In this document: piece by piece, positions 5,442 through 43,335 of the stretch
How the letters are laid out: each line of letters opens with the position of its first letter
Position numbering within the stretch: position 1 is the stretch's first letter
Source: Paenirhodobacter ferrireducens
Lineage (GTDB): Bacteria > Pseudomonadota > Alphaproteobacteria > Rhodobacterales > Rhodobacteraceae
DNA length: 64,000 nt
Reading direction: 5' to 3'
NCBI RefSeq assembly: GCF_004022265.1
Contig: NZ_SAVB01000011.1
Location: 62,001 to 126,000, forward strand
The notes under the pieces: model-generated
Told to the model about the DNA's origin: nothing
Database searches by the model: none
Seen by the model: the letters and a program-made list of their open reading frames with translations, nothing else
Translations under genes and position numbers: made by a program

Positions 5442-7934
5442 ATGGCTGATGTTTTCGGCACCAGCGGCAACGATACTTGGACCAACGACAATACCAACGA
5501 CCGGTATTTCGGCGGCGACGGCAATGACACGATGACCGGCGGCAACGGCACGCAGGTGCTGTTTCCCGGGTCGAACCCCGCCGCCAATGGCGAGTGGATC
5601 TATGGCGGCAACGGCAACGACGTCTATTACGGCAATGGCAGCAATGACGTTCTGGTCGAATACGAGACCACCACCGGCCGCGACACGATGTATGGCGGTG
5701 ACGGCAATGACACAATGTCTGGTGGTGCCGACAACGACTTCATGAGCGGGGACGCCGGCAACGACAACCTGACCGGCGGGACCGGCAACGACAGCATGCT
5801 GGGCGGCATCGGGAACGATTCCCTTTTTGGCGACGCCGGCAACGACACCCTCTACGGCGGCGATGACGCGGATTACCTCGATGGTGGGGCGGACAACGAC
5901 ACGCTCTACGGGGGTACCGGAAACGATACAATCGGCGGGGACACCGGGGACGATCTGCTCTTTGGCGACGACGGGGCTGATGTGCTCGCCGCTGGCATCG
6001 GGACGGATACGCTCTATGGTGGAACCGGCAACGACACGCTCTGGGGAATGGGCGGTGCCGACCTGGTCTATGGTGGGACTGGTAACGACCGGATCTACGG
6101 CGAAGATAACGATACGGTCACCGGATACAACGACAGCCTCTATGGCGATGACGGCAATGACAGCATCTTCGGTTACGGCGGCGATGACAGCATCGACGGC
6201 GGGAACGGCAGCGATTCGCTCGTCGGCGGCGACGGCAGTGACACCATCTTCGGGGATGCTGCGAGTGATACGCTGCCCGGCAATGACACGCTTGATGGCG
6301 GTGCCGGGGCTGATATCCTGCGCGGCGGCGCGGGCGATGACCTGGTCTATGGTGGCGCAGACAACGACAGCATGACCGGCAATGCCGGCAACGACACGCT
6401 CTATGGCGGCACCGGCGACGATGTGATCGACGGCGGCGATAGCCTCAACCCGACCGGCGATGACCTCGTCTATGGCGGCGATGGCAACGACACGATCTGG
6501 GGCACGGCCGGTTTCGATACTCTCTACGGCGACGCTGGCAATGATGTGCTCGATGGCGGCGATGATGCGGATTCGCTGCAAGGCGGTATCGGCGCGGATA
6601 CGCTCTATGGCGGCGCCGGCAATGACACGCTCTGGGCCGGGACGGGCGACGGGGTCACCGACACCGCCGGGAACTCCCTCGATGGCGGCGACGGCAATGA
6701 TTCCCTTGTCGGCGAGGCCGGCAATGACACGCTCTGGGGCGGGACCGGCGACGACACCCTCCTGGGCGGGAGCGGCGACGACAATCTCTTCGGTGAAGCC
6801 GGGGCGGACTCGCTGGACGGCGGCGATGGCAATGACACCGTGTGGGGCGGCGATGGCGCCGGCGGGCCTGACGGGAACGATACGCTCTCTGGTGGTGCCG
6901 GCGATGACATCATTCTTGGCGAAGGCGGCAACGACGTGCTGTCCGGTGACGCGGGCAACGACACGCTCTGGGGGGATGACGGCAACGACACGCTGACCGG
7001 CGGAACCGGCGACGACTACTTCGTCTGGGATGGCGCCAGCGATGATGTCATCACCGATTTCGGTACCGACAGCGGCGGACCCTACACCGATGGCAACCAG
7101 TCGAACAACGACTTCGTCGATCTGAGCGGCATCTTCAACGATGCGACGCTTGCGGCCTACAACGCGGCGAACGGCACGAATTTCGTCCAGCCGATCATGG
7201 CGATGAACCACGATCTGGCCGATGGCGTCATCAGCTTCAACGGCACCGACATGAGCGGGCCGACGCTGACCATGACCGGCATCACCGGCGGGCTGACCTG
7301 GGATCAGACCAATGTCGTCTGCTTCGCCTCGGGCACGCGGATCAAGACGCGGCACGGCGAGGTCGCGGTCGAGGATCTCCAGCCCGGTGCGCAGGTGCTG
7401 ACGCTCGATTCGGGCTATCAGCCGCTGCGCTGGATCGGCGGGCGCCAGGTCGGGGCGGCGGAGCTGGTGCAGCATCCGAAGCTGCGGCCGATCCGGATCC
7501 GGGCCGGCGTTCTGGGGCTGAACCAGCCCGAGCGCGACCTGCTCGTCTCGCCCCAGCACCGGGTGCTTGTCCGTTCCCGCGTCGCCGAGCGGATGTTCGG
7601 CGAGGCCGAGGTGCTCGTCGCGGCGAAGCATCTGCTGGCCCTCGACGGGGTCGAGGTTGCCGAGGACGTGACCGAGGTGACCTATTGGCACTTCCTCTTC
7701 GACACGCATCAGGTCGTGTTCTCGAATGGTGCGGCGACGGAAAGCCTGTTCACCGGCCCCGAGGCACTGAAGGCGGTCAGCCCCGAGGTCCGCGAGGAAA
7801 TCCTGGCGCTGTTCCCCGAACTCGCCCTCGGCCTTGGTGCCGAGACCGAGGCGGTGCGCCGCCTCGTCCCGGGGCGTGCGGCCCGGCAGCTGGCGGAGCG
7901 TGTCTTGCGCAACCGCAAGCCGCTGGTCGCCTGA
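5442..7934 (+). CDS. RTX-repeat protein with C-terminal Hint domain (copy 1)
   Basis: An 830-residue acidic protein. Residues from about 20 to 545 are tandem calcium-binding RTX nonapeptides (GGxGNDxxx). A linker of about 80 residues follows, then a Hedgehog/intein-type Hint_2 domain beginning at Cys627 (VVC-F) with a block-B-like SPQHRVLV and a VTYWHF...VVFSNG segment. The ATG at 5442 is chosen because it follows a GGGGG site and the longer in-frame start adds no conserved sequence. There is no Sec signal; export by a type I system is expected for RTX proteins, but no HlyB/HlyD genes lie nearby. The Hint domain may process or attach the chain. Bases 6456-7344 appear identical to part of the RTX gene at 29228. 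The biological role is unknown. Confidence 0.85.
6456..7344 (+). repeat. 889-bp direct repeat, copy 1
   Basis: Apparently identical to 30110-30998 (constant offset 23654), read by eye at both ends and supported by identical translations in several frames on both strands. It covers the distal RTX repeats, the linker and the first residues of the Hint domain. Similarity drops sharply at both ends. Confidence 0.9.
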
Positions 7935-29227: not shown

Positions 29228-31597
29228 ATGGCGAACATTTATGGCGGCCTTGGGAACGATTCCCTCAACGGGACTACCGGCAGCGATTCGATTTTCGCCT
29301 ATGGCGGCGACGACACGGTCACCGGCGGCCTCGGCAACGATGTGATCGTCGGCGGCCTCGGCAACGACCGACTGTTTGGGGAGGACGGCAACGATTCGAT
29401 TTGGGGTGAGGCTGGCAACGACACGATCGTCGGCGGCCTCGGCGATGACGCGCTGTTCGGGCAGGACGGCAACGATTCGATTTGGGGTGCAGTCGGCAAC
29501 GATTCCATCATCGGCGGCCTCGGCGATGACGGGCTGTTTGGGGGGGACGGCAGCGATTCGATTTGGGGTGAAGCCGGCAATGATACGATCGGCGGCGGCG
29601 CCGGCAACGATTCCATCTATGGTGGGATCGGAAATGATTCCATCGACGGTAACGACGGCAATGATTCCATCGACGGGGGCGACGGCAGTGATTCGCTCCT
29701 CGGCGGAACCGGGGATGACACGATCTGGGGCGACGGCAACGATGCCCTCATGGTTGGGGATGACACCATCGACGGCGGGCTCGGGAACGATGTTCTGCGC
29801 GGTGGCGCCGGGAATGACTCCATCTTGGGCGGCGACGGCAACGATTCGATTGCCGGCAATCTCGGAAATGACACGATCTACGGTGGTCTCGGCGACGATT
29901 TGATCGACGGCGGCGATGTCTCTGACCCGATCAGCGACGATCTGGTCTATGGCGGCGACGGCAATGACACGATCTGGGGCTCTGCCGGCAATGATACGCT
30001 CAGCGGGGATGCCGGCAATGACACGATTACGGGCGGCAGCGGCAACGACACGATCTACGGCGGGACCGGCGATGATAATATCGACGGTGGCGATAACACC
30101 AACCCGCTGGGCGATGACCTCGTCTATGGCGGCGATGGCAACGACACGATCTGGGGCACGGCCGGTTTCGATACTCTCTACGGCGACGCTGGCAATGATG
30201 TGCTCGATGGCGGCGATGATGCGGATTCGCTGCAAGGCGGTATCGGCGCGGATACGCTCTATGGCGGCGCCGGCAATGACACGCTCTGGGCCGGGACGGG
30301 CGACGGGGTCACCGACACCGCCGGGAACTCCCTCGATGGCGGCGACGGCAATGATTCCCTTGTCGGCGAGGCCGGCAATGACACGCTCTGGGGCGGGACC
30401 GGCGACGACACCCTCCTGGGCGGGAGCGGCGACGACAATCTCTTCGGTGAAGCCGGGGCGGACTCGCTGGACGGCGGCGATGGCAATGACACCGTGTGGG
30501 GCGGCGATGGCGCCGGCGGGCCTGACGGGAACGATACGCTCTCTGGTGGTGCCGGCGATGACATCATTCTTGGCGAAGGCGGCAACGACGTGCTGTCCGG
30601 TGACGCGGGCAACGACACGCTCTGGGGGGATGACGGCAACGACACGCTGACCGGCGGAACCGGCGACGACTACTTCGTCTGGGATGGCGCCAGCGATGAT
30701 GTCATCACCGATTTCGGTACCGACAGCGGCGGACCCTACACCGATGGCAACCAGTCGAACAACGACTTCGTCGATCTGAGCGGCATCTTCAACGATGCGA
30801 CGCTTGCGGCCTACAACGCGGCGAACGGCACGAATTTCGTCCAGCCGATCATGGCGATGAACCACGATCTGGCCGATGGCGTCATCAGCTTCAACGGCAC
30901 CGACATGAGCGGGCCGACGCTGACCATGACCGGCATCACCGGCGGGCTGACCTGGGATCAGACCAATGTCGTCTGCTTCGCCTCGGGCACGCGGATCATG
31001 ACACCGGACGGCGAGGTGATGATCGAAGATCTTCATGCGGGCGATGTGGTCATGACGGTCGACAACGGCGCCCAGGAGATCCGCTGGATCGGGTCGCGCC
31101 ACATCGATGCCGAGCGCCTTGCTGCCGAGCCGACACTTCGGCCGATCCGCATCCGCAAGGGCGCGCTCGGCGGCGGGCTGCCTGAGAGTGATCTTCTGGT
31201 CTCGCCGCAGCACCGCGTGCTGATCCGCTCGAAAGTGGCGAAGCGCATGTTCGGCGAAAGCGAAGTCCTTGCGGCCGCCAAGCAATTGCTGACGATCGAC
31301 GGGGTCGAGGTGGCGCATGATGTGACTGAGGTGACCTATTGGCACTTCCTGTGCAGCCGGCACGAGGTGGTCTTTTCCAACGGCGCCATGACGGAGTCGC
31401 TTTACACCGGGGCGCAGGCGCTCAAGTCGTTCCCGTTTGAGGTCATCGAAGAGATCTTCTCGATCTTTCCCGAACTGAAGACCTGGGAGGAGGAAGCGTG
31501 CCCGGACGGCGCCCGCATTCTGTTGAGAGGGCGCGAGGCACGCAGCCTTGCAGAGCGCATCGCGAAGAACAACAAGTCGCTTCTTGAGGCCGCATGA
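29228..31597 (+). CDS. RTX-repeat protein with C-terminal Hint domain (copy 2)
   Basis: 789 residues with the same architecture as the gene at 5442: RTX nonapeptides (about residues 5-500), a linker, then a Hint_2 domain from Cys583 (VVC-F) with [10 protein letters not shown] and a VTYWHFL...VVFSNG block. The N-terminal repeats differ from copy 1, the middle (30110-30998) appears base-identical, and the Hint domain and tail diverge again ([16 protein letters not shown] against [16 protein letters not shown]). Type I secretion and calcium binding are expected from the family; no secretion genes are present. The start is the ATG after a GGGTTTGGGAG stretch. Confidence 0.85.
30110..30998 (+). 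repeat. 889-bp direct repeat, copy 2
   Basis: Partner of 6456-7344 in the same orientation. The two copies flank 23.65 kb, including the DUF6065 and Hint-only genes, the sulfur operon, the galactose operon and gbpR. The absence of visible differences implies recent duplication or gene conversion. Confidence 0.9.
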
Positions 31598-34968: not shown

Positions 34969-35368
34969 AGGCTGCAGGCACGACTGATCTGGGGCGGTCA
35001 CCTCATCAATTCCGCCAGCATTCCGACGGTCAACGGGCCGGCTCCGGGCCTGGGTGACGGATCACGACCGCATGCGCCGGCTGGTCGAAATCCATCAGCG
35101 AATTGAAATTCAATGATCTTGTTCAGGTTCGGCCACGGCGATGTCCAGGAAATGGTTGTCGGGTGGGCAAGAAACGGGCCCGAATGGTCATCATTTCAGT
35201 GGTCGGACAGCCAGATCAGCCCAAAGGCATCGTGATCCGTATAAGCAAGAAAGTGTATTTTTGCGATGCACACAAGAAAATCTTGTGGAACCCCACAACC
35301 CATTGAAAAAATGGACATCGGCAAGGGCTGATCTAGTGGGTCATTTTATGTAGGGCAGGGCGCCTAGA
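34969..35368. other. Non-coding stretch before the prophage
   Basis: About 400 bases of lower GC content. A 67-codon frame at 35103-35306 (VIISVVGQPDQPKG..., VYFCDAHKKILWN) has no clear ribosome-binding site and no recognisable family, so I do not call it a gene. The right edge runs into the left attachment sequence. Confidence 0.35.
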
Positions 35369-35382
35369 CACAAGACGCATAA
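35369..35382 (+). repeat. attL: Left attachment site (XerC-arm-like)
   Basis: CACAAGACGCATAA matches 41423-41436 (CACAAGGCGCATAA) with one difference. The last 11 bases resemble the XerC arm of dif (GGTGCGCATAA in E. coli). The following bases (TCTGCGCGCAAATTT) do not resemble a XerD arm, as expected for the phage side of a XerC-mediated junction. Confidence 0.7.
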
Positions 35383-35405
35383 TCTGCGCGCAAATTTGCA
35401 CAACT

Positions 35406-35771
35406 CTACCTCCGGTTGCACCACGGCACGAACGCACGACCCGTGCCGCCGCCCTTCTTAGGGTCCGGGCGGCGCTTACAGGTCTCAGGCTTGGGGGGAG
35501 ACATATCGAGCGCGCGCGGCTCTTCACGCCGCGACGGCACCACGCGCTGAACTGCGGCGGGAGCCGCCGAGCGTGTGGCCTCCTGTTCATCCGCCAGCCG
35601 CGCAATCGACAGCGCGCGCCGCCGAGGAAGAGACGAAACAACCACATCGGGCAGTGTATCAGCAAGCACCCGATGTGCGCGCGCGACACGAAAGGTCGAG
35701 CGCGCGGAACCGTCGTTGCGGTCCCGCGTCAGATCGCGGGCCAGCCGCTCGCGAGGATTGCGCCGTCTCAT
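35406..35771 (-). CDS. Small basic phage protein (VP5-like, possible ssDNA-binding)
   Basis: 121 residues, very rich in Arg and Pro (MRRRNPRERLARDL...), with no enzyme motif. Position directly after the replication gene and strong positive charge fit the small DNA-binding proteins of microviruses. Its start overlaps the Rep stop (ATGA). Assignment rests on location and composition only. Confidence 0.6.
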   Translation of the reverse strand: MRRRNPRERLARDLTRDRNDGSARSTFRVARAHRVLADTLPDVVVSSLPRRRALSIARLADEQEATRSAAPAAVQRVVPSRREEPRALDMSPPKPETCKRRPDPKKGGGTGRAFVPWCNRR

Positions 35772-36751
35772 ATCTTACCCTCCAAGTCACTGAGCCGAAT
35801 AATACCATCAGGAGCATCTTGGAGCAACCGCTCCACAAAATCTAGTTGTCTCAGGCGATCGCCGCGCATCATATCGGCCTTCTGCTCAGAAATACGCTGC
35901 GAAAATTCCTCATCCGCGGCGCGTTGCTCCTCCAGCGGCAACGCCTCGCGCCAGTCGCGCTCACGCTGCAACGCCTGTTTCTCAAACGACCGCCCGACCC
36001 ACTCGGACATTTTAGGAAGATCATCGGGGCTCGTGGTAATCGCGTTGAGATAATCCCGGCGCGTCGCGCCGGTCATCAGATAAGGCTTGTCGCGGCTACC
36101 GCCCGGGGGAAGATATTCGAACGACGAGGGCAGAACGCCCAACTCCCGCGCCCTGGCGGCCTTGCGTGCAAACCACTCGGCGCCAAGCGCCGGCTTCTTC
36201 GAAAGCGAGAACCACGCATTGTTCTTGTCCTCCTGAAGCAGATATTTGCACACGTACCGCGCGGATTTTTCAGAGGCGGACCAATCCACCTTAATGTGGC
36301 CATGAGGCCACTCGCGAATGTGAACCATTCGCTTTTGCGGTATCTCGCGACAGAAGGGACCATCATAAGAACCGTAAACGGGGACCGGCCCGCGATCCCC
36401 GAGCGGTTCAAGATGCTGGAAAAACAGGATCGCATGAAAATGCGCTCTGTCCCGAAGTTCACCATATTCACCAGAGACGAGATACCTAACTTTGTGACCC
36501 GCCCGGCGAAGCAACTTCATAAAAAGCTGGAAATGACGCGGATACAGCACTTTATCCGCGAGATCATCACGCGGCGCATAGGTCAAGCTCACCGTCGCAC
36601 AAATCTGCGACACCGACGCTTCGGCCATACAGCGCGCCACGTAGTCATTCACCCGATTTTGCCTGCACCGCCAGCATTGGCGGCAGGCCACGGGTTGTTG
36701 CTCCCATTTCGGCCCGCGTTGAACCCAAACATAGTTCGGAGAAATACACAT
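35768..36751 (-). CDS. Microvirus replication initiation protein (HUH endonuclease)
   Basis: 327 residues. N-terminal cysteine cluster (CRQCWRCR, residues 23-30), then the HUH motif His104-Phe-His106 within GEYGELRDRAHFHAILF, and a catalytic tyrosine motif YVCKY at residues 166-170. This order is diagnostic for Gokushovirinae-like VP4/Rep, which nicks the replicative form to start rolling-circle replication and single-strand synthesis. The start has only a weak GGGA site. The gene lies downstream of a hairpin-rich region that probably contains the origin. Confidence 0.92.
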   Translation of the reverse strand: MCISPNYVWVQRGPKWEQQPVACRQCWRCRQNRVNDYVARCMAEASVSQICATVSLTYAPRDDLADKVLYPRHFQLFMKLLRRAGHKVRYLVSGEYGELRDRAHFHAILFFQHLEPLGDRGPVPVYGSYDGPFCREIPQKRMVHIREWPHGHIKVDWSASEKSARYVCKYLLQEDKNNAWFSLSKKPALGAEWFARKAARARELGVLPSSFEYLPPGGSRDKPYLMTGATRRDYLNAITTSPDDLPKMSEWVGRSFEKQALQRERDWREALPLEEQRAADEEFSQRISEQKADMMRGDRLRQLDFVERLLQDAPDGIIRLSDLEGKI

Positions 36752-37195
36752 TTTCGGTCCCGTTCTTGGCGTGTCACTAAAAGGGTATGTGCATCAAGTA
36801 AGCATACCCCGCCCCGCGCCTCTCTGATCGAGAGGCGCGGGGCTGCATGGGGGCGCATCGCTAGCGCTGACGGTTCCTGCAAGCAGGAAAAAACCATTTC
36901 CCATGCGGATTTAGGGGTCTGGAAGACCCCACCCCCTTGCGACTGCGCCCCCGCCCGTGCGGGGGCTGTCGCTAAAAAAGAGCGCAAAAGGCCCAGCGTA
37001 GCGCGCTTAACAGACCGGAGAAGCCGGGCTAACTACGACACAGGCCTACGCTCAAATGGATAAGACAGGACTGCGCAAACGCGGGGCGGCTTCCGCCCCG
37101 CTTCTTTATTTGCGCAGATCACAGAACAGCCGTAGCGGCTCCGCCGCTGCAAAATGCAACGACAGCACATAGAAGAGCCCTCGGCTTGAAGCAGG
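36752..37195. promoter_or_regulatory. Hairpin-rich prophage intergenic region, candidate origin/packaging region
   Basis: 444 bases with no gene and four strong inverted repeats: 36811-36843 (14-bp arms, 5-base loop), 36914-36930 (7-bp arms), 36947-36966 (8-bp arms) and 37081-37101 (9-bp arms followed by TTCTTTATTT). It separates the structural/lysis genes from rep. Single-stranded origins and packaging signals of such phages are typically stem-loops; one of these may also be a terminator. Confidence 0.55.
37081..37101 (+). terminator. Intrinsic terminator-like hairpin in the prophage
   Basis: Perfect 9-bp arms (GCGGGGCGG/CCGCCCCGC) with a 3-base loop, followed on the plus strand by a T-rich tail. 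It lies after the endolysin gene as read on the minus strand, where the tail is weaker (GTTTG), so it may work in both directions. Confidence 0.5.
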
Positions 37196-37891
37196 CTACC
37201 GATACCGGGCAAGAATGGCCCGGGGTGTCAAATGCACCATGGGACCGGCCTCGATTTCACGAGTCCGTCGCCGATAGTCGGTGATTTCCCAATGGGCAGG
37301 GTCCCAAGAGAAGCGATCGCCGGGGCCGTCATTGCCGCCCCATGTCAAGCTCAGCTTCTCGGCCTTCTTCAGCGGCGCGTTGACGCGATCAAGCGCCAGA
37401 CGGCCCAACACGCCGAGGAACTGCCATTCCTGCGGCGTGAGTTGCCAATGGTAAACCCCGTGGACGATATCGACGGCCTCACCGATGCAATGCGCAGAGC
37501 GCGGCCACGGCGCCTTAGAAGCACCGTCACGCACCGCCTTCACCTGTTGCTCGCGCGTCCGAAAGGCGCTGTGCACATAGAGCGGCACGCCGCGCTTGCG
37601 CGCGAGTTCAACGAAGGCAGCGGCCCACCGCATCAGACGCGGGTCACAATGCTGCCAATCGGCCCGGCCATATTGCCGCAACGCGGCATCCGTGAGGATG
37701 AAGCCGGGAGCCTTCAGACGTTCCGGAGCGGCCCAAGTAGGACCGTCCTGAGGATCATCAAGAAAGCGCAGGTAGGCCTGCGCAGGATCGGGATTTTCGC
37801 GCTTGGCAGACCGGAAAAGGTCTTGGGGCGTCCGAAGACGCCCCCCGACATACTCTTGCCACCAGCGCGTGAGCACTTGGCCGGGCCTCAT
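37196..37891 (-). CDS. M15-family peptidase, phage endolysin
   Basis: 231 residues. The C-terminal two thirds match M15 (VanY/L-Ala-D-Glu peptidase) endolysins: VHSAFRTREQQVKAVRDG, the zinc-site motif SAHCIGEAVDI with His134 and Asp141, and the third ligand His200 in DPAHWEI. It should cleave peptide cross-links in the cell wall for lysis. Classical microviruses such as phiX174 lyse cells with a small MraY inhibitor instead; an M15 enzyme is a trait of some temperate and alphaproteobacterial microviruses. It overlaps the upstream gene by 4 bases. Confidence 0.88.
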   Translation of the reverse strand: MRPGQVLTRWWQEYVGGRLRTPQDLFRSAKRENPDPAQAYLRFLDDPQDGPTWAAPERLKAPGFILTDAALRQYGRADWQHCDPRLMRWAAAFVELARKRGVPLYVHSAFRTREQQVKAVRDGASKAPWPRSAHCIGEAVDIVHGVYHWQLTPQEWQFLGVLGRLALDRVNAPLKKAEKLSLTWGGNDGPGDRFSWDPAHWEITDYRRRTREIEAGPMVHLTPRAILARYR

Positions 37892-38361
37892 TCCTCGCCC
37901 TCCACGGAAACGGCGCCGTCGCCTGCGCCATCATCATCGGCGGACGCCACCGACTGCGCAGCCGGCGCCAGACGCGCCTTGCGCTGCTCGGCGCGGATCT
38001 CCGCAATCGACGCGCGCCGGGCAAATTCGAGCTCACGCAGCGCCCGCCGCACTTCCATGACGGTGCCGCTCTCATCCGGCAACCGGTCGATATTGGTGAA
38101 GACCTCACCGACAGCCGGAACGGCGGTCCGGCTTTCGACCTGGCGGAACACGCGCAGGCCTTTCAGCCCCTCAGCGCGGAACGTCCCCGCGTCCGAAACC
38201 TCGAGGTCGAACGCCGCGCCATAACCGGCGAGGGCTTCGACCCCTTCGCAGGTGACGAAGAGCGCGGCGGGCGCCGAGAACCGCAGGCACAAGCGCCCTT
38301 TCGCGAACGGGATTTCTGCATTGGCTTTGACCTCATTCCAACCGAAAACGTCGAATTTCAT
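37888..38361 (-). CDS. Microvirus internal/scaffold-type protein
   Basis: 157 residues, starting MKFDVFGWNEVKANAEIPFAK after a near-perfect GAGGAGG site. The C-terminal third is helical and charged (ELEFARRASIAEIRAEQRKARL) with an acidic end. It lies between capsid and lysis genes, where microviruses often place the VP3-like internal scaffold. No firm family match; function inferred from location. Confidence 0.6.
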   Translation of the reverse strand: MKFDVFGWNEVKANAEIPFAKGRLCLRFSAPAALFVTCEGVEALAGYGAAFDLEVSDAGTFRAEGLKGLRVFRQVESRTAVPAVGEVFTNIDRLPDESGTVMEVRRALRELEFARRASIAEIRAEQRKARLAPAAQSVASADDDGAGDGAVSVEGEE

Positions 38362-38371
38362 GTGAACCTCC

Positions 38372-40021
38372 TCAGACGCCAGCCGAAACGACAGCGTCGT
38401 AATCGTCGGAGTTCTCGGCGAGCACGTCGCCAATCTGCGTCAGGCCGACGATAGACACCGAATGACGCGCGACGAACTCGAAAGCGTCGGCGGTCGTGTC
38501 GGAAAAAACGTCATGCGGGAAATCCGCCGGCGCGAGATAGTGCGTCGCCGAGAATGTCGGATTGACGATTTCCGTCTGCCAGATCGCGGCGCGGTTTTCC
38601 GTCCAGCCCGCGCCCGGCGTGGCCTGATAGAAAACACCGCCCAGCCGGGTGAAATCCCGGTTCCACACGTCATTCATCGGCTCATAGCCGTAAAGCTGCC
38701 CGGGCTGCGCATGTTTGGCGTCGACGCGGCGATTTTTCACCAGATCGACCGGTTCGACGCGCTGAACATCGCGCAGAGCATTCGGGAACTGATCGAAGTT
38801 GTTAAAGAACAGCCACTCGTCAGTCATCCGTTCGTCAATCCGCTCGGGCAGAACCTCGACGGTGACGATCACCACGCCGCCCACATCATTGCGCGGAACG
38901 TTCAGCGACAGCGACGCCGACGCGAGGCCCTGCGTCACCGACTGGTCAAGATTTGCCGCATCCGTCGCAAAACGCTCGGCAAAGTCCACCGGCACCCGCT
39001 TGCTATCCAGCAACCACGGGCGCTTGAACTGCTCATCGGGCACCGACAGCCCCATCATCAGCAGCGCAACGAGCGTGTCGTCATTGTCGAAACCCGTCGC
39101 GTCGTTCCCGGCGTAGGCCGTCCGCAGTTTGGCAAACGCCTGCGTCGTGCGTGCCTTGTCGATATCCGCGAGCGACACGCCCAAAGTCTGACCGGCCATT
39201 TCGGCCCACACCTCAGGATAACCGCTGGCATTCTCGCGCAAATAACGCTCGGTGTTGCTGTCATTGAAGCCGCGACCGGTCGCGTAAGTCGCCGTCTTCC
39301 CACCGGTTTCCTTCACCGACACACCGAGAGCGATCGACCCGCCGTCCGCACGCTGGCCGATACCCGTAACCGGCAGGCGACCGGCGATCACGTCGAGATC
39401 GAGGGACCCGACGACGAGCGCCCGCTCATAATCCGGCACGACACGCGAGAACCGGGGCGACGGCCAGAACGCAGGCGGAAGCGACGTCGCCTGTGCAAGG
39501 TCTTCCACCGCATATTTCCGGCGCGGCAAACGCGACGAATGCGCGGCCAGCCGGAAATTGTAGACCAGATTGAAAGCGTCGATGAGATCGGTGTTCATCG
39601 ACGCGCCGGTGAAGCCATGCAGACCGAGCGTCCGATACAGCGCGGACGCATAGACAACGTCGCGCGCCGTGCCGCTCAAAACGTTGAAATACGGCGGCGG
39701 CATGCGATCCGCCGCACCAAGCGTTTTGATCGCCTCGCCGGTCATCGCGTGCATCAGTTCATCGCGGCCCGAGAACTGCGGAAACGCCGATTTGGGCACG
39801 AACCACGCCTGAAAATTAGCGGTGACGCCGTTCAGCAGCGGCTTCGGCATTTCGGCCAACTGCACATCGACGCCGACGCGCCCCGAGGCGCTGTCACCCG
39901 GCAGCAGCGGGAAATAGGTCACGGGCACGACCACACCGGCACGACCGCTCGACATGGTCACCGCGCGGTCAATGCGGGTGGACGGCGAAAAAGAGACCGG
40001 CGTCGTGGATTGACGGGACAT
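38372..40021 (-). CDS. Microvirus major capsid protein (VP1/F)
   Basis: 549 residues, the size of gokushovirus-like capsid proteins. The N-terminus carries the family pattern (FSPSTRIDRAVTMSSGR, VPVTYFPLLPGDS, VDVQLAEMPKPLLNGVTANFQAWFVP) and the C-terminus RVEPVDLVKNRRVDAKHAQPGQLYGYEPMND. It forms the icosahedral shell. The start follows AAAGGAAA. Intact over its length. Confidence 0.92.
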   Translation of the reverse strand: MSRQSTTPVSFSPSTRIDRAVTMSSGRAGVVVPVTYFPLLPGDSASGRVGVDVQLAEMPKPLLNGVTANFQAWFVPKSAFPQFSGRDELMHAMTGEAIKTLGAADRMPPPYFNVLSGTARDVVYASALYRTLGLHGFTGASMNTDLIDAFNLVYNFRLAAHSSRLPRRKYAVEDLAQATSLPPAFWPSPRFSRVVPDYERALVVGSLDLDVIAGRLPVTGIGQRADGGSIALGVSVKETGGKTATYATGRGFNDSNTERYLRENASGYPEVWAEMAGQTLGVSLADIDKARTTQAFAKLRTAYAGNDATGFDNDDTLVALLMMGLSVPDEQFKRPWLLDSKRVPVDFAERFATDAANLDQSVTQGLASASLSLNVPRNDVGGVVIVTVEVLPERIDERMTDEWLFFNNFDQFPNALRDVQRVEPVDLVKNRRVDAKHAQPGQLYGYEPMNDVWNRDFTRLGGVFYQATPGAGWTENRAAIWQTEIVNPTFSATHYLAPADFPHDVFSDTTADAFEFVARHSVSIVGLTQIGDVLAENSDDYDAVVSAGV

Positions 40022-40138
40022 AGGGTTTCCTTTCGTGGAAATCAGCGAAACCGCACCGTCGCCCCGGTCTGAACCGAGTGGCGACGATAGAACGGATTGT
40101 TCGAGGAGTAGTGATAGGGGCGGGCCTCAGTAGAGGCA

Positions 40139-40981
40139 TTACGCGGCTCTTGCGCGTAATAACTTCCCGTCGATTTTCATCACGGGAACGCCCTGTGCTT
40201 TCAGCTTTTTGGCTTCGGCAGCAGTGAACATACGGCCAAGCGTAGTCACCACAGCATCGCCAGATGCGGCAATGCCGCCAACGCCAGAGATAACTTCACC
40301 CCCGGCGTCCTCGAAAACTTGACCACTGGACGTAGCGCCGGACCCGACAAAGGTCTTGCCAAACAAACGAAAAGCCGGAATGCCCGCCTTATTGGCGACC
40401 GTTACAGGGTCGTTGTCAGCGCCGACAGCATACCCATCAGGGAAGCGAGCAGGCACACCCAAAGAAACACTCGCAGCATCAGAACCCCCCGCTTGCCCTC
40501 GGGGTCGGACATTACCGACAGCCGAGCCACCGGGCAATACCGTAACGGCGGTGCGCCCGAGAGGCGAACCGCCGCCGATGGCGCCGGCAGCGCTGCCCGG
40601 CGCATAGGCAACACCCGACCGGGCCTGTTCCAGCTTGAGCTTGGCGAGATCAAGATTCAGTTGATCCGCCTCGCGCTTGATCGCCCGTTCTTCACGGGCT
40701 TCCGGGGACAGCGCGTCGAGGCCGGCCGAGATCATTTCGAACGACGCCAGCGGCGGCCCCGAGCTACCGCCACCGAGGGCACCACCCGGCTGGCCATATT
40801 GCAGCATGGTCAGCGGATTGAAGCCATAGCGCTCGGCAGCCTGCCGGGCGCCCTTCGCCTGCGAATTGATATTCGACGCGGGAGACGCGGACTTTTTCTT
40901 ACCGAAAAGCCCGCCGATACCGCCCAGAATACTGCCGATACCGCTCAGAGCACCGCCGGCGGATGCAAGGCCTGCAAACAT
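40139..40981 (-). CDS. Microvirus DNA pilot protein (VP2/H-like)
   Basis: 280 residues. The N-terminus is a small hydrophobic Gly/Ala/Ile segment (GLASAGGALSGIGSILGGIGGLFGKKK) followed by a YGFNPLTMLQYG stretch and a long helical region (LNLDLAKLKLEQARSG), typical of pilot proteins that form a tube for DNA delivery. The ATG at 40981 follows GGAGGTGAGC; the longer open frame upstream overlaps the previous gene and lacks a site. Confidence 0.85.
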   Translation of the reverse strand: MFAGLASAGGALSGIGSILGGIGGLFGKKKSASPASNINSQAKGARQAAERYGFNPLTMLQYGQPGGALGGGSSGPPLASFEMISAGLDALSPEAREERAIKREADQLNLDLAKLKLEQARSGVAYAPGSAAGAIGGGSPLGRTAVTVLPGGSAVGNVRPRGQAGGSDAASVSLGVPARFPDGYAVGADNDPVTVANKAGIPAFRLFGKTFVGSGATSSGQVFEDAGGEVISGVGGIAASGDAVVTTLGRMFTAAEAKKLKAQGVPVMKIDGKLLRARAA

Positions 40982-40983
40982 GC

Positions 40984-41247
40984 TCACCTCCGGATCGGGC
41001 CGCGCACCGAACCGGCGCGACGAAGAGGCGGGGGAGCCGAGGACCGGCGCGCCTGCGGAATGTCCGCGAAAAACGCGCGCAGCTTCCGGCACAGGTCTGC
41101 CGGGCTAATCCAGAACATATCGCACGCGAACTGCGCCGCCTGCGGCAGGTCGGCGTCAGGATCGAAGATGTATTCTTCGGGCCGCGTGTAGCGCAGAAGC
41201 CACAGCAAGGCGTCTTCCAGCGTCGAAACGGAAAGCGGGGCGTGCAT
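40984..41247 (-). CDS. Small prophage protein, 87 residues
   Basis: Starts with ATG at 41247, or GTG one codon earlier, overlapping the stop of the upstream tiny gene; it ends 2 bases before the pilot gene. The sequence (TLEDALLWLLRYTRPEEYIFDPDADLPQAAQFACDMFWISPADLCRKLRAF split across the chain) looks soluble and helical, with an Arg-rich tail. Not recognised; tight packing supports expression. Confidence 0.6.
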   Translation of the reverse strand: MHAPLSVSTLEDALLWLLRYTRPEEYIFDPDADLPQAAQFACDMFWISPADLCRKLRAFFADIPQARRSSAPPPLRRAGSVRGPIRR

Positions 41248-41375
41248 CACAGCCCCCCAACGCCAGCGCAGAACGGCGCGTGGAACTCAGGGAAAGTCAT
41301 CGCCAGCAGCGTACCGAGCACGCCCAGAAGCGGGGGAAGAGCCACCCGGAGGGTGGAAAACGAAAAGGACTTCAA
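41247..41375 (-). CDS. Tiny membrane protein with TTG start, 42 residues
   Basis: A TTG codon 6 bases after a perfect AGGAGG opens a frame of 43 codons ending in a TGA that overlaps the next start. The product has a basic start (KSFSFSTLR), one hydrophobic segment (VALPPLLGVLGTLLAMTF) and a short Gly-rich end. Its size and single membrane span, in a phage with a peptidoglycan hydrolase, make a holin-like or spanin-like role possible. First gene of the prophage as transcribed. Confidence 0.6.
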   Translation of the reverse strand: MKSFSFSTLRVALPPLLGVLGTLLAMTFPEFHAPFCAGVGGL

Positions 41376-41393
41376 AAAAGCCTCCTAGGGTTA

Positions 41394-41410
41394 CGAGCCG
41401 AACCGGCTCG
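41394..41410. promoter_or_regulatory. Perfect hairpin at the right end of the prophage
   Basis: Arms CGAGCCG and CGGCTCG with a 3-base loop, between the attachment site and the first prophage gene. No T-run on either strand. It may be a regulatory or attP-folding structure. Confidence 0.45.
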
Positions 41411-41425
41411 CCCCTAGATAAGCAC

Positions 41426-41453
41426 AAGGCGCATAAGCAAGATTATGTCAAGA
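41426..41453 (+). repeat. dif: dif-like XerCD recombination site (right junction)
   Basis: 28 bases that align with E. coli dif: XerC arm AAGGCGCATAA (8 of 11 match), 6-base centre GCAAGA, XerD arm TTATGTCAAGA (8 of 11 match). Bases 41426-41436 also match the left junction. On a XerC-exchange model the centre and XerD arm are host sequence and the prophage ends at 41436. The XerD arm overlaps the stop codon of the next minus-strand gene. Confidence 0.75.
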
Positions 41454-41885
41454 TTGAGCCGGAATCAGGTCGGCGCTGAGCTCGTGCAGGCGCTGCGTGA
41501 TCGCGTGCATCTTCTCGATCTCGGTGGGGCTGAACGGACCCGCGCTGCGGGTGAAGCCGGAGATCGAGCGGTCGCCCGCCGGGCCCACGGCACAGGTCAG
41601 CCCGTTGCGGATGCCGTGTTGTGCGGCCTCGGCCAGGATGCCGTCCGGGTCCTCGAGATCCTTCCACAGCACCGAGCCGGTGTGGTGGAAGCCCCACACC
41701 ACCACCGGGTCGCGCAACATCATGCCCATTTCGCTGTAATGGTCGATCCAGTCCTGCGCATAGGTGCGGAACAGCAGGCCCGGCCGGGTGAAGCGGATAT
41801 GCAGCGCGAGCGCATAGCCGGTGTCGCACAGCTCACCCAGCTCTGACAGGATCGCGTCAAGTTGTGCTTTGTTTCCGGTTCCCAT
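41448..41885 (-). CDS. Autoinducer-binding-domain protein without DNA-binding domain
   Basis: 145 residues covering only the AHL-binding domain of LuxR-type regulators. The conserved pocket residues are present in order (WIDHYSEMGMMLRDP with the W, Y, D, P positions, then VLWKDL, then GLTCAVG). There is no LuxR helix-turn-helix and no remnant of one downstream. The stop codon is on the host side of the dif site, so prophage insertion did not shorten it. It is divergent from luxR. By analogy with TrlR of Agrobacterium it could titrate AHL or form inactive heterodimers with the full-length LuxR; that is inference. Confidence 0.8.
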   Translation of the reverse strand: MGTGNKAQLDAILSELGELCDTGYALALHIRFTRPGLLFRTYAQDWIDHYSEMGMMLRDPVVVWGFHHTGSVLWKDLEDPDGILAEAAQHGIRNGLTCAVGPAGDRSISGFTRSAGPFSPTEIEKMHAITQRLHELSADLIPAQS

Positions 41886-41957
41886 GTCCTGATTTCCGCT
41901 TTAGGTTGTCGCGCGCAGCGGACATTTCCGTCTGCCGCGAAAGATATTGAGCGCATT

Positions 41958-41969
41958 TTGCGAGCGCAA
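41958..41969. promoter_or_regulatory. Palindrome between the AHL-binding gene and luxR
   Basis: TTGCGAGCGCAA is a perfect 12-bp palindrome 17 bases before the luxR ATG, in the 100-base divergent promoter region. Candidate LuxR-type binding site. Confidence 0.35.
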
Positions 41970-41985
41970 GCTGTTTGCCGGGCCA

Positions 41986-42600
41986 ATGAACCTGTCTAAA
42001 AGTCGAAACACGCTGGAACAGATCGCCCCTGCGGGTTTCTACGTGGCGCTGCGCGTGGGGTATTCCTTCCCGGAAGAAGAGCTGAACGGTCTCGATCCGG
42101 GCTGGATCGAGACGTACACCCAGCTGGGTCTCGTCATGCAGGATCCGTCGATGCGGTGGGTCTATGCCCATAACGGGGCGGTGCGCTGGTCTGAGCTCGA
42201 GCTGCCAGATCCGGCCGGGGTGATCGGGCTGGCGCGCAAGGCGGGGCTGAACTGGGGCGCGACCGTCGCCTTCTGCCGGCCCGAGGACGCCGGGCGGCGC
42301 AGCTATGCGATGCTGTTCCGCGCCGATCGCAATTTCACCCAGGACGAGCTCGACGCGGCCTATGCGCTGCTTCGTGACCTGCATCTGGGGGCCGGGCGGG
42401 AGGCGGGGCCGGCCCTGACCGAGGCCGAGCTCGAGGCGATCCGGCTGCGCGCGGGCGGCAAGCTGCTGAAACAGATCGCCGCCGAGATCGGGATCTCGGA
42501 AAGCGCCGTGAAGGCGCGTCTGGCCTCGGCCTGCCGCAAGACCGGGGCGAAAAATGCCATCGAATTGCTCTCGATTGCCACCACGAGGCGAATGATCTGA
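41986..42600 (+). CDS. luxR: LuxR-family quorum-sensing regulator
   Basis: 204 residues from ATG 41986. N-terminal AHL-binding domain with WIETYTQLGLVMQDP and VRWSEL pocket motifs, and a C-terminal LuxR helix-turn-helix (LTEAELEAIRLRAGGKLLKQIAAEIGISESAVK, split around residue 145-180). It should bind the signal made by the downstream synthase and control target promoters. The longer frame starting at 41947 runs through the palindrome and is not chosen. luxI follows after 72 bases. Confidence 0.9.
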   Translation: MNLSKSRNTLEQIAPAGFYVALRVGYSFPEEELNGLDPGWIETYTQLGLVMQDPSMRWVYAHNGAVRWSELELPDPAGVIGLARKAGLNWGATVAFCRPEDAGRRSYAMLFRADRNFTQDELDAAYALLRDLHLGAGREAGPALTEAELEAIRLRAGGKLLKQIAAEIGISESAVKARLASACRKTGAKNAIELLSIATTRRMI

Positions 42601-42672
42601 GCACAGGCACCCCTCAAGGGTGAAAACGTTGCCCAATCGTGCTTCAGCTTGCCTATCCAGAAGGAGGCAAGC

Positions 42673-43335
42673 ATGGAAAACATCACTTTCAAATTCGCCG
42701 ATCTGCATCGTCACGGTCCGGCGTTCTACGACTTCCTGCGGCTGCGCAAGGAGGTCTTCGTCGACGAGCTCGGCTGGGACGTGCCGCATGACGACGAGGT
42801 CGAGATGGACCAGTATGACACCCCCGTTGCGCATTACTCGCTGGTGCTGTCGGGCGGGGCGGTCGTGGGCGGCGCGCGGGCGATGTCGACCGAGGCGATC
42901 TGGGGCCCGAACACCTACATGCTGCGCGACGCGCATCGCGGCAAGCTCGAGCATATCCCGCCCACCGTGCTGCCCGACGAGATCGCCTCGCCGCAGGTGT
43001 GGGAATGCACGCGGCTGGTGATCTCGTCGCGGCTGACGACCAATGACGAGCGGCGCACCTGCTTGCGGCTGATCGTCGACGGTCTGGTCGAGCAGGCCCG
43101 CGCGCGCGGTGCCGAGACGCTGATCTGTCTGTCGTCGCATGCGCTGATGCGGACGCTGCGCCAGCTCGGCTACGAGGTCACCCGGATCGGGCCGAGCTAT
43201 CGCAACGACGAGGACGGGCGGCTCTATGCGGTGCTGGCGATGCCGGCCGAGTTCTCGACCGCGCGGCGCGAGGACTGGGCGCCGGCGCATCTGCCGATCG
43301 CACCCGCCGCGACGATCGCGGCGCGTGCGGTCTGA
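42673..43335 (+). CDS. luxI: Acyl-homoserine-lactone synthase
   Basis: 220 residues, ATG after AAGGAGGCAAGC. Conserved LuxI residues are visible: Arg25 and Phe29 in LRKEVFV, Trp35 in LGWDVP, Asp46 and Asp49 in EVEMDQYD, Arg69 in GGARAM, and Glu111 and Arg114 in WECTRL. It makes the AHL from acyl-ACP and S-adenosylmethionine. The 72-base gap after luxR holds a CACCC...GGGTG inverted repeat (42608-42622) that could be an operator or a weak stem. Confidence 0.93.
   Translation: MENITFKFADLHRHGPAFYDFLRLRKEVFVDELGWDVPHDDEVEMDQYDTPVAHYSLVLSGGAVVGGARAMSTEAIWGPNTYMLRDAHRGKLEHIPPTVLPDEIASPQVWECTRLVISSRLTTNDERRTCLRLIVDGLVEQARARGAETLICLSSHALMRTLRQLGYEVTRIGPSYRNDEDGRLYAVLAMPAEFSTARREDWAPAHLPIAPAATIAARAV

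Follow-up and report, generated by a model that had tools for sequence, protein, structure and literature searches.

The window analysed here is a 64,000-nucleotide stretch of Paenirhodobacter ferrireducens DNA. It corresponds to bases 62001-126000 of a 137,502-bp contig (C2) in a 4.07-Mb draft genome of 61 contigs. At about 35.2-41.4 kb of the window lies a compact row of minus-strand open reading frames (ORFs), which is described below as a microvirus prophage (Table 1). All of the phage ORFs are open. The layout of the 4-8 kb Microviridae was found, with a VP1 capsid, a pilot protein and a HUH replication initiator (Rep) on one strand, the pilot being recognised only from its position and N-terminus. 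A scan of eight phage ORFs against Pfam and PHROGs gave matches to Rep, endolysin and head-protein families. No recombinase family was among these matches, and no repressor gene was recognised in the families searched. The 42-aa ORF, the pilot candidate and the 157-aa protein had no match in the scan. The endolysin matched the Pfam M15 models below their cut-offs only, and overlapping weak or unknown-function models (DUF5715, PHROG 29197 and PHROG 5115, named 'ferredoxin') fell on Rep and the endolysin. H104, H106, Y166, V167 and Y170 of Rep are invariant across six aligned Reps, and the residue between the two histidines is tryptophan in two of them. The endolysin carries the motifs SAHCIGEAVD and PAHWE. 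In its six-row alignment D141 and the PAHW block are invariant, and the SAHxxGEAxD block is not conserved in the Rhizobium phage row. The 121-aa protein is a homologue of Gp10 of Rhodobacter phage Ebor, which the Ebor record annotates as present in virions.

A complete dif, a 28-bp site of the XerC and XerD (XerCD) recombinases, was found at the 5' side of the gene row. It is the sole match to its own pattern in the genome at three or fewer mismatches. Partners of dif were ranked by XerC arm plus centre in the window locus and in ten prophages on genome contigs, one of which (L082) is the prophage of genome G026 that is also catalogued as L030. The best partner in the window was the site at 35234, with 13/17 positions and the whole 6-bp centre alike. 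The two sites are 6192 bp apart, and the element runs from 35245 to 41436 or, equivalently, from 35251 to 41442. In all ten genome-contig prophages the best-ranked partner also had the whole centre in common, and the same rule held in five prophages of complete PLSDB plasmids. An attachment (att) pair with a 6/6 centre was thus present in 16/16 prophages. None of 152 control cross-locus pairs with unlike centres reached 6/6, and the 6 of 240 cross pairs that did so overall equal the number of ordered pairs with identical centres. The dif sits 5' of the capsid gene in the window and in the ten genome-contig prophages; in the five plasmid prophages the script sought it only there. A sixth PLSDB prophage (L174) shows a common 6-bp centre by eye. 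It was excluded from the set of 16 and from the counts of FtsK-orienting polar sequences (KOPS) given below because its dif arm, ATAC, failed the ATAA filter. Tritonibacter mobilis p2 and Rhodovulum sulfidophilum Plasmid1 carry Rep-bearing loci with the same kind of 6/6 att pair, the Tritonibacter locus being assessed by its Rep match and att pair only. A scan of IMG/VR with the attP core ATAAGCAAGAAAGTGTA returned five contigs.

The left flank was compared with other replicons. Window 35024-35209 resembles intergenic plasmid DNA of Paracoccus aminovorans (74%) and P. kondratievae (70%), and both Paracoccus plasmids have a complete dif at the same distance as the 35234 site. Counted by eye, the XerC arm ends 43 nt from where a shared GTnnGACA-like block begins in each of the three replicons. 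Judged from the DNA, the att pair and the flank homology place the left end at the 35234 site, and the element is 6192 bp and not 6054 bp long.

Table 1. Features of the prophage and its attachment sites (positions in the window unless another locus is named).
Feature	Position	Strand	Remarks
Prophage	35245..41436	-	6192 bp; minus-strand gene row with dif on its 5' side
attL	35234..35261	+	XerC arm GATCCGTATAA 35234-35244; centre GCAAGA 35245-35250; degenerate XerD arm AAGTGTATTTT 35251-35261
attR, complete dif	41426..41453	+	AAGGCGCATAA GCAAGA TTATGTCAAGA; regenerated site, probably used to resolve plasmid dimers
Extra XerC-arm-like copy	35369..35382	+	Left repeat of the original prediction; inside the prophage tail; not a boundary
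121-aa basic protein	35406..35771	-	Ends CKRRP...GTGRAFVPWC; Ebor Gp10 homologue; five-sequence alignment with 15 invariant columns
HUH replication initiator Rep (VP4/A-like), 327 aa	35768..36751	-	Pfam REP_ORF2-G2P 7.5e-17; PHROG 942 1e-38
M15-type endolysin, 231 aa	37196..37891	-	PHROG 465 endolysin 6e-7; alignment with five relatives
157-aa conserved protein, role not assigned	37888..38361	-	Counterpart is L030 9360-9842
Major capsid protein VP1/F, 549 aa	38372..40021	-	PHROG 514 major head protein, 7e-6
DNA pilot protein candidate (VP2/H-like)	40139..40981	-	Glycine-rich N-terminus, resembling L030 6647-7579; precedes the capsid gene
88-aa ORF, Ebor Gp2 counterpart	40984..41250	-	165-nt DNA match (76.5%) to Ebor 221-385, within Gp2 (206-460)
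42-aa small hydrophobic ORF	41247..41375	-	In the place of Ebor Gp1 (putative membrane protein), by position only
KOPS GGGCAGGG	35353..35360	+	Inside the prophage; points at dif
KOPS GGGCAGGG	37294..37301	+	Inside the prophage; points at dif
Conserved ~185-bp stretch	35024..35209; L192 2501-2686; L193 2501-2695		XerC side of dif

The replicon carrying this site was then considered. C2 holds the sole match of the genome to the RepC family, with repC at 54.3 kb of the contig. Along C2 the cumulative GC skew is lowest in the 51-54 kb bin beside repC and highest in the 111-114 kb bin; dif lies at 103.4 kb, 8-14 kb before the maximum. The 37 KOPS of the contig are distributed, as forward/reverse counts, 0/16 before repC, 13/0 from repC to dif and 0/8 after dif, and the polarity flips between the KOPS that bracket dif. 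A KOPS switch at dif has been described for large extrachromosomal replicons in the available part of PMC13342612. Since C2 carries the only repC and its KOPS and skew are organised around repC and dif, it is most likely a plasmid of the repABC type whose dif is chromosome-like. A dif with the centre TCAGTA or TCGGTA occurs in 12/17 other genomes of the genus, and its counterpart here has the centre TTGGTA and lies on contig C25. The phage therefore most likely sits in the dif of a repABC plasmid and not in that of C25. Five genome matches to the XerD model were obtained; the two strongest, on C25 (313 bits) and C58 (226 bits), are both below the curated cut-off and were taken as XerD and XerC. 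The original prediction of an intact temperate alphaproteobacterial microvirus integrated at dif agrees with the gene content, the motifs and the att pair. Its open ORFs on one strand, the Rep motifs H104-F-H106 and YVCKY, the M15 endolysin and the lack of an integrase gene were all recovered, with the phenylalanine as the variable position mentioned above. Its statement that a host dif was used through XerCD holds for the dif, with XerCD as the presumed enzymes; 'host dif' is too simple for a site that most likely belongs to a plasmid.

The KOPS inside the prophages were also oriented. In the 16 prophages, 58 KOPS point towards dif and one points away, and the motif GGGNAGGG is present in all 16. 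Of 15,324 motifs of this form it has the largest strand excess. The positions are spread across the prophages, and a few nearly coincide. Within ORFs the counts are 35:0, compared with 9.9 +/- 3.0 (maximum 20) and 3.9 +/- 2.0 in 500 synonymous shuffles; outside ORFs they are 23:1. In the flanking host DNA of 14 loci the counts are 31:0 on the XerC side and 5:40 on the XerD side. Loci L206 and L207 add 7:0, and Ebor has 2:0. According to PMC5993296, which cites it as known, prophages of E. coli and Salmonella are rich in KOPS. Selection appears to have given the prophage DNA KOPS oriented like those of its replichore.

The capsid protein was used to place the phage among the microviruses. A tblastn search at 1e-5 matched 76 phage records, 27 of which are Rhizobium phages; those listed are about 33-34% identical over nearly the whole length. 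The nearest capsids were those of Tortoise microvirus 38 (71.7%) and Flyfo microvirus Tbat2_93 (69.1%). End-to-end alignment of the protein with four relatives gave 68-72% identity, and it is 76% identical to that of a Pseudogemmobacter humi prophage over 544 columns. A capsid match was present in 2 of 295 family genomes, a sample drawn from a larger group and including the source genome, and in 6 of 72,556 PLSDB plasmids, three of the six being typed conjugative. The relatives from viral contigs were the best 80 of 222. The capsid tree had 47 rows; the partial capsid matches L108, L110 and L111, 53 of the 57 contigs L112-L168 and a Rattus record were left out, and no row was dropped for stops. 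The window capsid falls in an 11-row clade (99/97) of six prophages and five phage or viral-contig genomes. The prophages are the window, L080-L083 and L169 of the P. aminovorans plasmid, and the prophage of a Rhodobacter metagenome-assembled genome (L086) lies elsewhere. Of the five other genomes, L092 has a dif-like site with the centre TCAGTA, and Tortoise microvirus 38 has an attP-like site with the centre TCGGTA. The tree includes one Rhizobium phage, from which the window is in a separate clade. Its root is unsure, and Ebor is joined to the rest by a very long branch of about 10 changes per column, which makes its placement unsure. The Ebor capsid was not among the 76 matches at 1e-5, and the window capsid did not group with that of Ebor, a phage of the proposed Tainavirinae. 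Rep is 27% identical to that of Ebor and 35% to that of RHEph17. A phylogeny of capsid and Rep had been suggested in the original prediction, which took the lineage to be possibly a poorly described one. The capsid tree gave a well-supported clade of its own rather than a grouping with Ebor, and relatives are in print, as far as the available parts of the reports go, as Occultatumvirinae and more distantly as Tainavirinae (PMC9512667, PMC12115509, PMC11980548).

The best explanation overall, held with considerable confidence, is that a temperate Occultatumvirinae-like microvirus of alphaproteobacteria entered a plasmid dif through the host XerCD. Another pair of boundaries had been proposed originally, namely a 6054-bp element (35383-41436) between two copies of CACAAGRCGCATAA. 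Exchange would then have taken place at the XerC arm without matching centres, in the manner of CTX-phi. Both copies exist, at 35369-35382 and 41423-41436, with 13/14 bases shared, the same orientation and a distance of 24 bases from the last ORF end. In a control, at least two copies at up to two mismatches were found in 5/100 shuffles. However, the bases after the copies (TCTGCG and GCAAGA) are alike at 1/6 positions and differ at the base beside the XerC arm, where CTX-phi itself is said to need pairing in the available part of PMC4246890. As a partner of dif this site reached 11/17 positions and ranks below the 35234 site. The other 15 prophages have 6/6 centres, and the flank homologous to the dif flanks of other plasmids extends to 35209, which puts dif at 35234. 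The 6054-bp element is thus very improbable, and its left end lies inside the 6192-bp element. It is also very improbable that the site is chromosomal, with C2 being a chromosomal contig that holds, for example, an integrated repABC plasmid. That idea would suit a 61-contig draft in which C2 does not close on itself. On the other hand, the usual dif type of the genus has its counterpart on C25, the KOPS and GC skew of C2 follow its own repC and dif, and a homologous 92-kb contig of G046, another genome of the genus, bears both repC and dif. A defective remnant that no longer functions as a phage would fit the failure to recognise a repressor gene in the families searched. This explanation is improbable given the open ORFs, the catalytic motifs that are kept and the complete att pair. 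Some observations nevertheless speak against a prophage in a plasmid dif. The two XerC arms are alike at 7/11 positions only. C2 is a draft contig without terminal overlap, so that the word 'plasmid' and the outer KOPS arcs presuppose a circle. The homologous contig of G046, a genome without a capsid match, has the centre TTTGGA and different DNA left of dif, and therefore it does not supply a clean empty site of this plasmid. The right flank recurs in G046 at 91% beside a different left neighbour and had no match in PLSDB, and the left flank had no full counterpart in 17 other genomes of the genus.

The KOPS polarity might follow from strand composition, from codon use or from common descent as a by-product, rather than being an adaptation to life beside dif. 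This is rather unlikely, and several results would nevertheless agree with it. A set of 41 permuted G6A motifs was also biased to the dif strand (mean 13.0:3.7), 57 more distant viral contigs of unknown lifestyle were biased as well (109:7), and some KOPS positions nearly coincide between prophages. The ratio of 58:1 exceeds that of the permuted motifs (p = 7e-6, a guide only, the prophages being related). The first rank of the motif and the excess over synonymous shuffles also argue against a by-product. In addition, 22 viral contigs whose capsids are 43% or more identical have 12:8, near the background of 7.5:5.1, and the capsid clade of the window differs from them in KOPS bias (p = 0.001). 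Further points count against polarity as an adaptation. The contigs without KOPS bias come from unknown hosts, and no KOPS was found in L090 and L092, both within the capsid clade of the window. The motif was assumed for this host from E. coli, with the polarity of the contig itself as its sole support. Each of six E. coli gokushovirus prophages at dif has KOPS counts of 0:0, and the polarity is therefore not general to dif-integrated microviruses.

An integration mechanism can be proposed for the prophage in the plasmid dif. The phage would offer the host XerC and XerD a short attP that consists of an XerC arm, a 6-bp centre and a poor XerD arm. The attP centre would have to match the dif that is entered, and here it matches the dif of the repABC plasmid and not that of C25. 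Recombination would put the phage on the XerC side of dif, leaving a complete dif at its 5' end and a degenerate copy at its 3' end. Because a complete dif is retained, the plasmid should keep its dimer resolution by FtsK and XerCD. The attP layout is that of the TLC-phi class, so that strand exchange by XerD would come first and that by XerC second, and the reaction would be reversible, with this order carried over from TLC-phi. Since entry would occur in one orientation right beside dif, KOPS pointing as in the replichore would be selected. The phage could presumably produce virions.

A wider idea, about as likely as not, is that temperate alphaproteobacterial microviruses are addressed by the attP centre to one replicon of a multi-replicon cell. 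Lineages would then be specialists of the chromosome or of a particular plasmid and could be carried along by conjugative plasmids, and their 6-kb genomes would have been shaped by FtsK-KOPS polarity beside dif. Through prophages at plasmid dif-like sites, these ssDNA (single-stranded DNA) phages would gain plasmid transfer as a second way of spreading. The centre match would be a simple rule for which replicon a phage enters. Strand-polar KOPS in such tiny phages would document, in compact form, the action of FtsK at a plasmid dif, and in metagenomes this polarity might help to separate temperate microviruses from lytic ones.

Other replicons and phages gave additional observations. The complete plasmids with prophages at dif-like sites belong to Paracoccus, Agrobacterium, Aminobacter, Rhizobium, Tritonibacter and Rhodovulum. 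A Rep search found 11 plasmid records, namely the same six as the capsid search plus Tritonibacter mobilis, Rhodovulum sulfidophilum, Citrobacter, Pusillibacter and a 4.5-kb E. coli record. The Citrobacter record is an IncF plasmid of Citrobacter sp. TSA-1 (L205), in which two ISNCY transposase genes enclose a gokushovirus-type prophage. Dif-like sites occur near both of its ends, but their best centre match was 3/6, and the prophage was left out as an att-pair case. The Pusillibacter plasmid yielded no dif of the motif used. The record CP057117 (L204, 4549 bp), filed as an E. coli plasmid, resembles a free gokushovirus genome. Roseobacter phage CRPss-151 (L077) has a dif-like site, TACGCGCATAA TCTATA CTATGTTAACC, at about 1340 and may be temperate. 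The prophage of Aminobacter aganoensis (L087) has two complete flanking dif sites, both with the centre TCAACA, and further dif-like sites of that genome (GATAGA and GTTATG) are on different contigs. Second dif-like sites in the genus of the window vary in centre: GCAAGA on C2 (G000), TTTGGA on C9 of G046, TTTTGA on C97 of G298, and GAGATG on C9 of G302 and C25 of G295. Among these contigs repC was shown on C2 and C9 of G046 only. The differing centres look as if they prevent recombination between replicons.

The surroundings of the site were also inspected. Quorum-sensing genes adjoin the plasmid dif at window 41448-43335, in DNA kept at 91% in G046. They comprise a 145-aa autoinducer-binding ORF, which has no helix-turn-helix match and has its stop codon in the XerD arm, followed by LuxR and LuxI homologues. 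In three Rhodobacterales replicons the conserved intergenic stretch of about 185 bp lies on the XerC side of dif at a constant spacing, and it may be an accessory element of dif. Window 29228-31597 encodes a protein of 789 aa that combines a Hint domain with 15 stretches of RTX calcium-binding repeats, and an 88% similar stretch is present at 6386-7822.

The element was finally compared with known systems, as far as the available parts of the cited reports allow. Like XerCD-dependent temperate microviruses, it has no integrase gene and has a complete dif and a phage dif that share the XerC arm (7/11 alike) and the centre. The enterogokushoviruses of E. coli (PMC7062461) also have no integrase, with a complete dif on one side and a degenerate phage dif on the other. 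Among 5426 genomes six matched such prophages; the att layout was the same in 6/6, and the centre was alike at 6/6 positions in five and at 5/6 in one. Integration of the E. coli gokushovirus failed without xerC or xerD, and complementation restored the xerC but not the xerD mutant. In contrast to the present phage, they belong to another subfamily, use the chromosome dif and are without KOPS. TLC-phi (PMC4246890) is similar in that its attP has an XerC arm and a centre like dif and a degenerate XerD arm. The same layout was found here, with a 6/6 centre and an XerD arm of AAGTGTATTTT compared with TTATGTCAAGA. In TLC-phi the reaction, which is reversible, is begun by XerD and finished by XerC. 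However, TLC-phi is a satellite filamentous phage of Vibrio cholerae, and the strand-exchange order would apply here by analogy only. The dif or xrs sites of large extrachromosomal replicons (PMC11724359, PMC13342612) resemble the plasmid dif as 28-bp XerCD sites with FtsK-type control and a KOPS switch. In the available passages, on the other hand, no phage is described at such a site; the word 'phage' is absent from PMC11724359, and 'prophage' and 'microvir' are absent from PMC13342612.

Among the phages themselves, the element resembles the proposed Occultatumvirinae (chaparroviruses, chicoviruses and related prophages; PMC9512667) in that Rhizobium phages make up 27 of the 76 records matched by its capsid, and RHEph17 has a similar gene order with an endolysin. 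They differ in that the Rhizobium phage capsids listed are only about 33-34% identical and that the window belongs to a separate, well-supported clade. Ebor (PP754850; PMC11980548) is likewise a temperate alphaproteobacterial microvirus with a similar gene order, a Gp10 homologue and a lytic enzyme. Its attP is alike in that an XerC arm and a poor XerD arm enclose a centre, TCAGTA, which is that of the common dif type. In contrast, its reported integration site in R. capsulatus strains is the cbbII operon, its genome includes a putative methylase gene, and its capsid was not matched. No paper on microvirus prophages at a plasmid dif or on KOPS polarity in microviruses was recognised in a literature search that covered titles, abstract starts and passages, and priority may lie with Zucker et al. 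2022 and Bobay et al. 2013. The XerCD lysogeny of microviruses is known; the targeting of a plasmid dif, the KOPS polarity and the corrected boundaries are the parts that look new.

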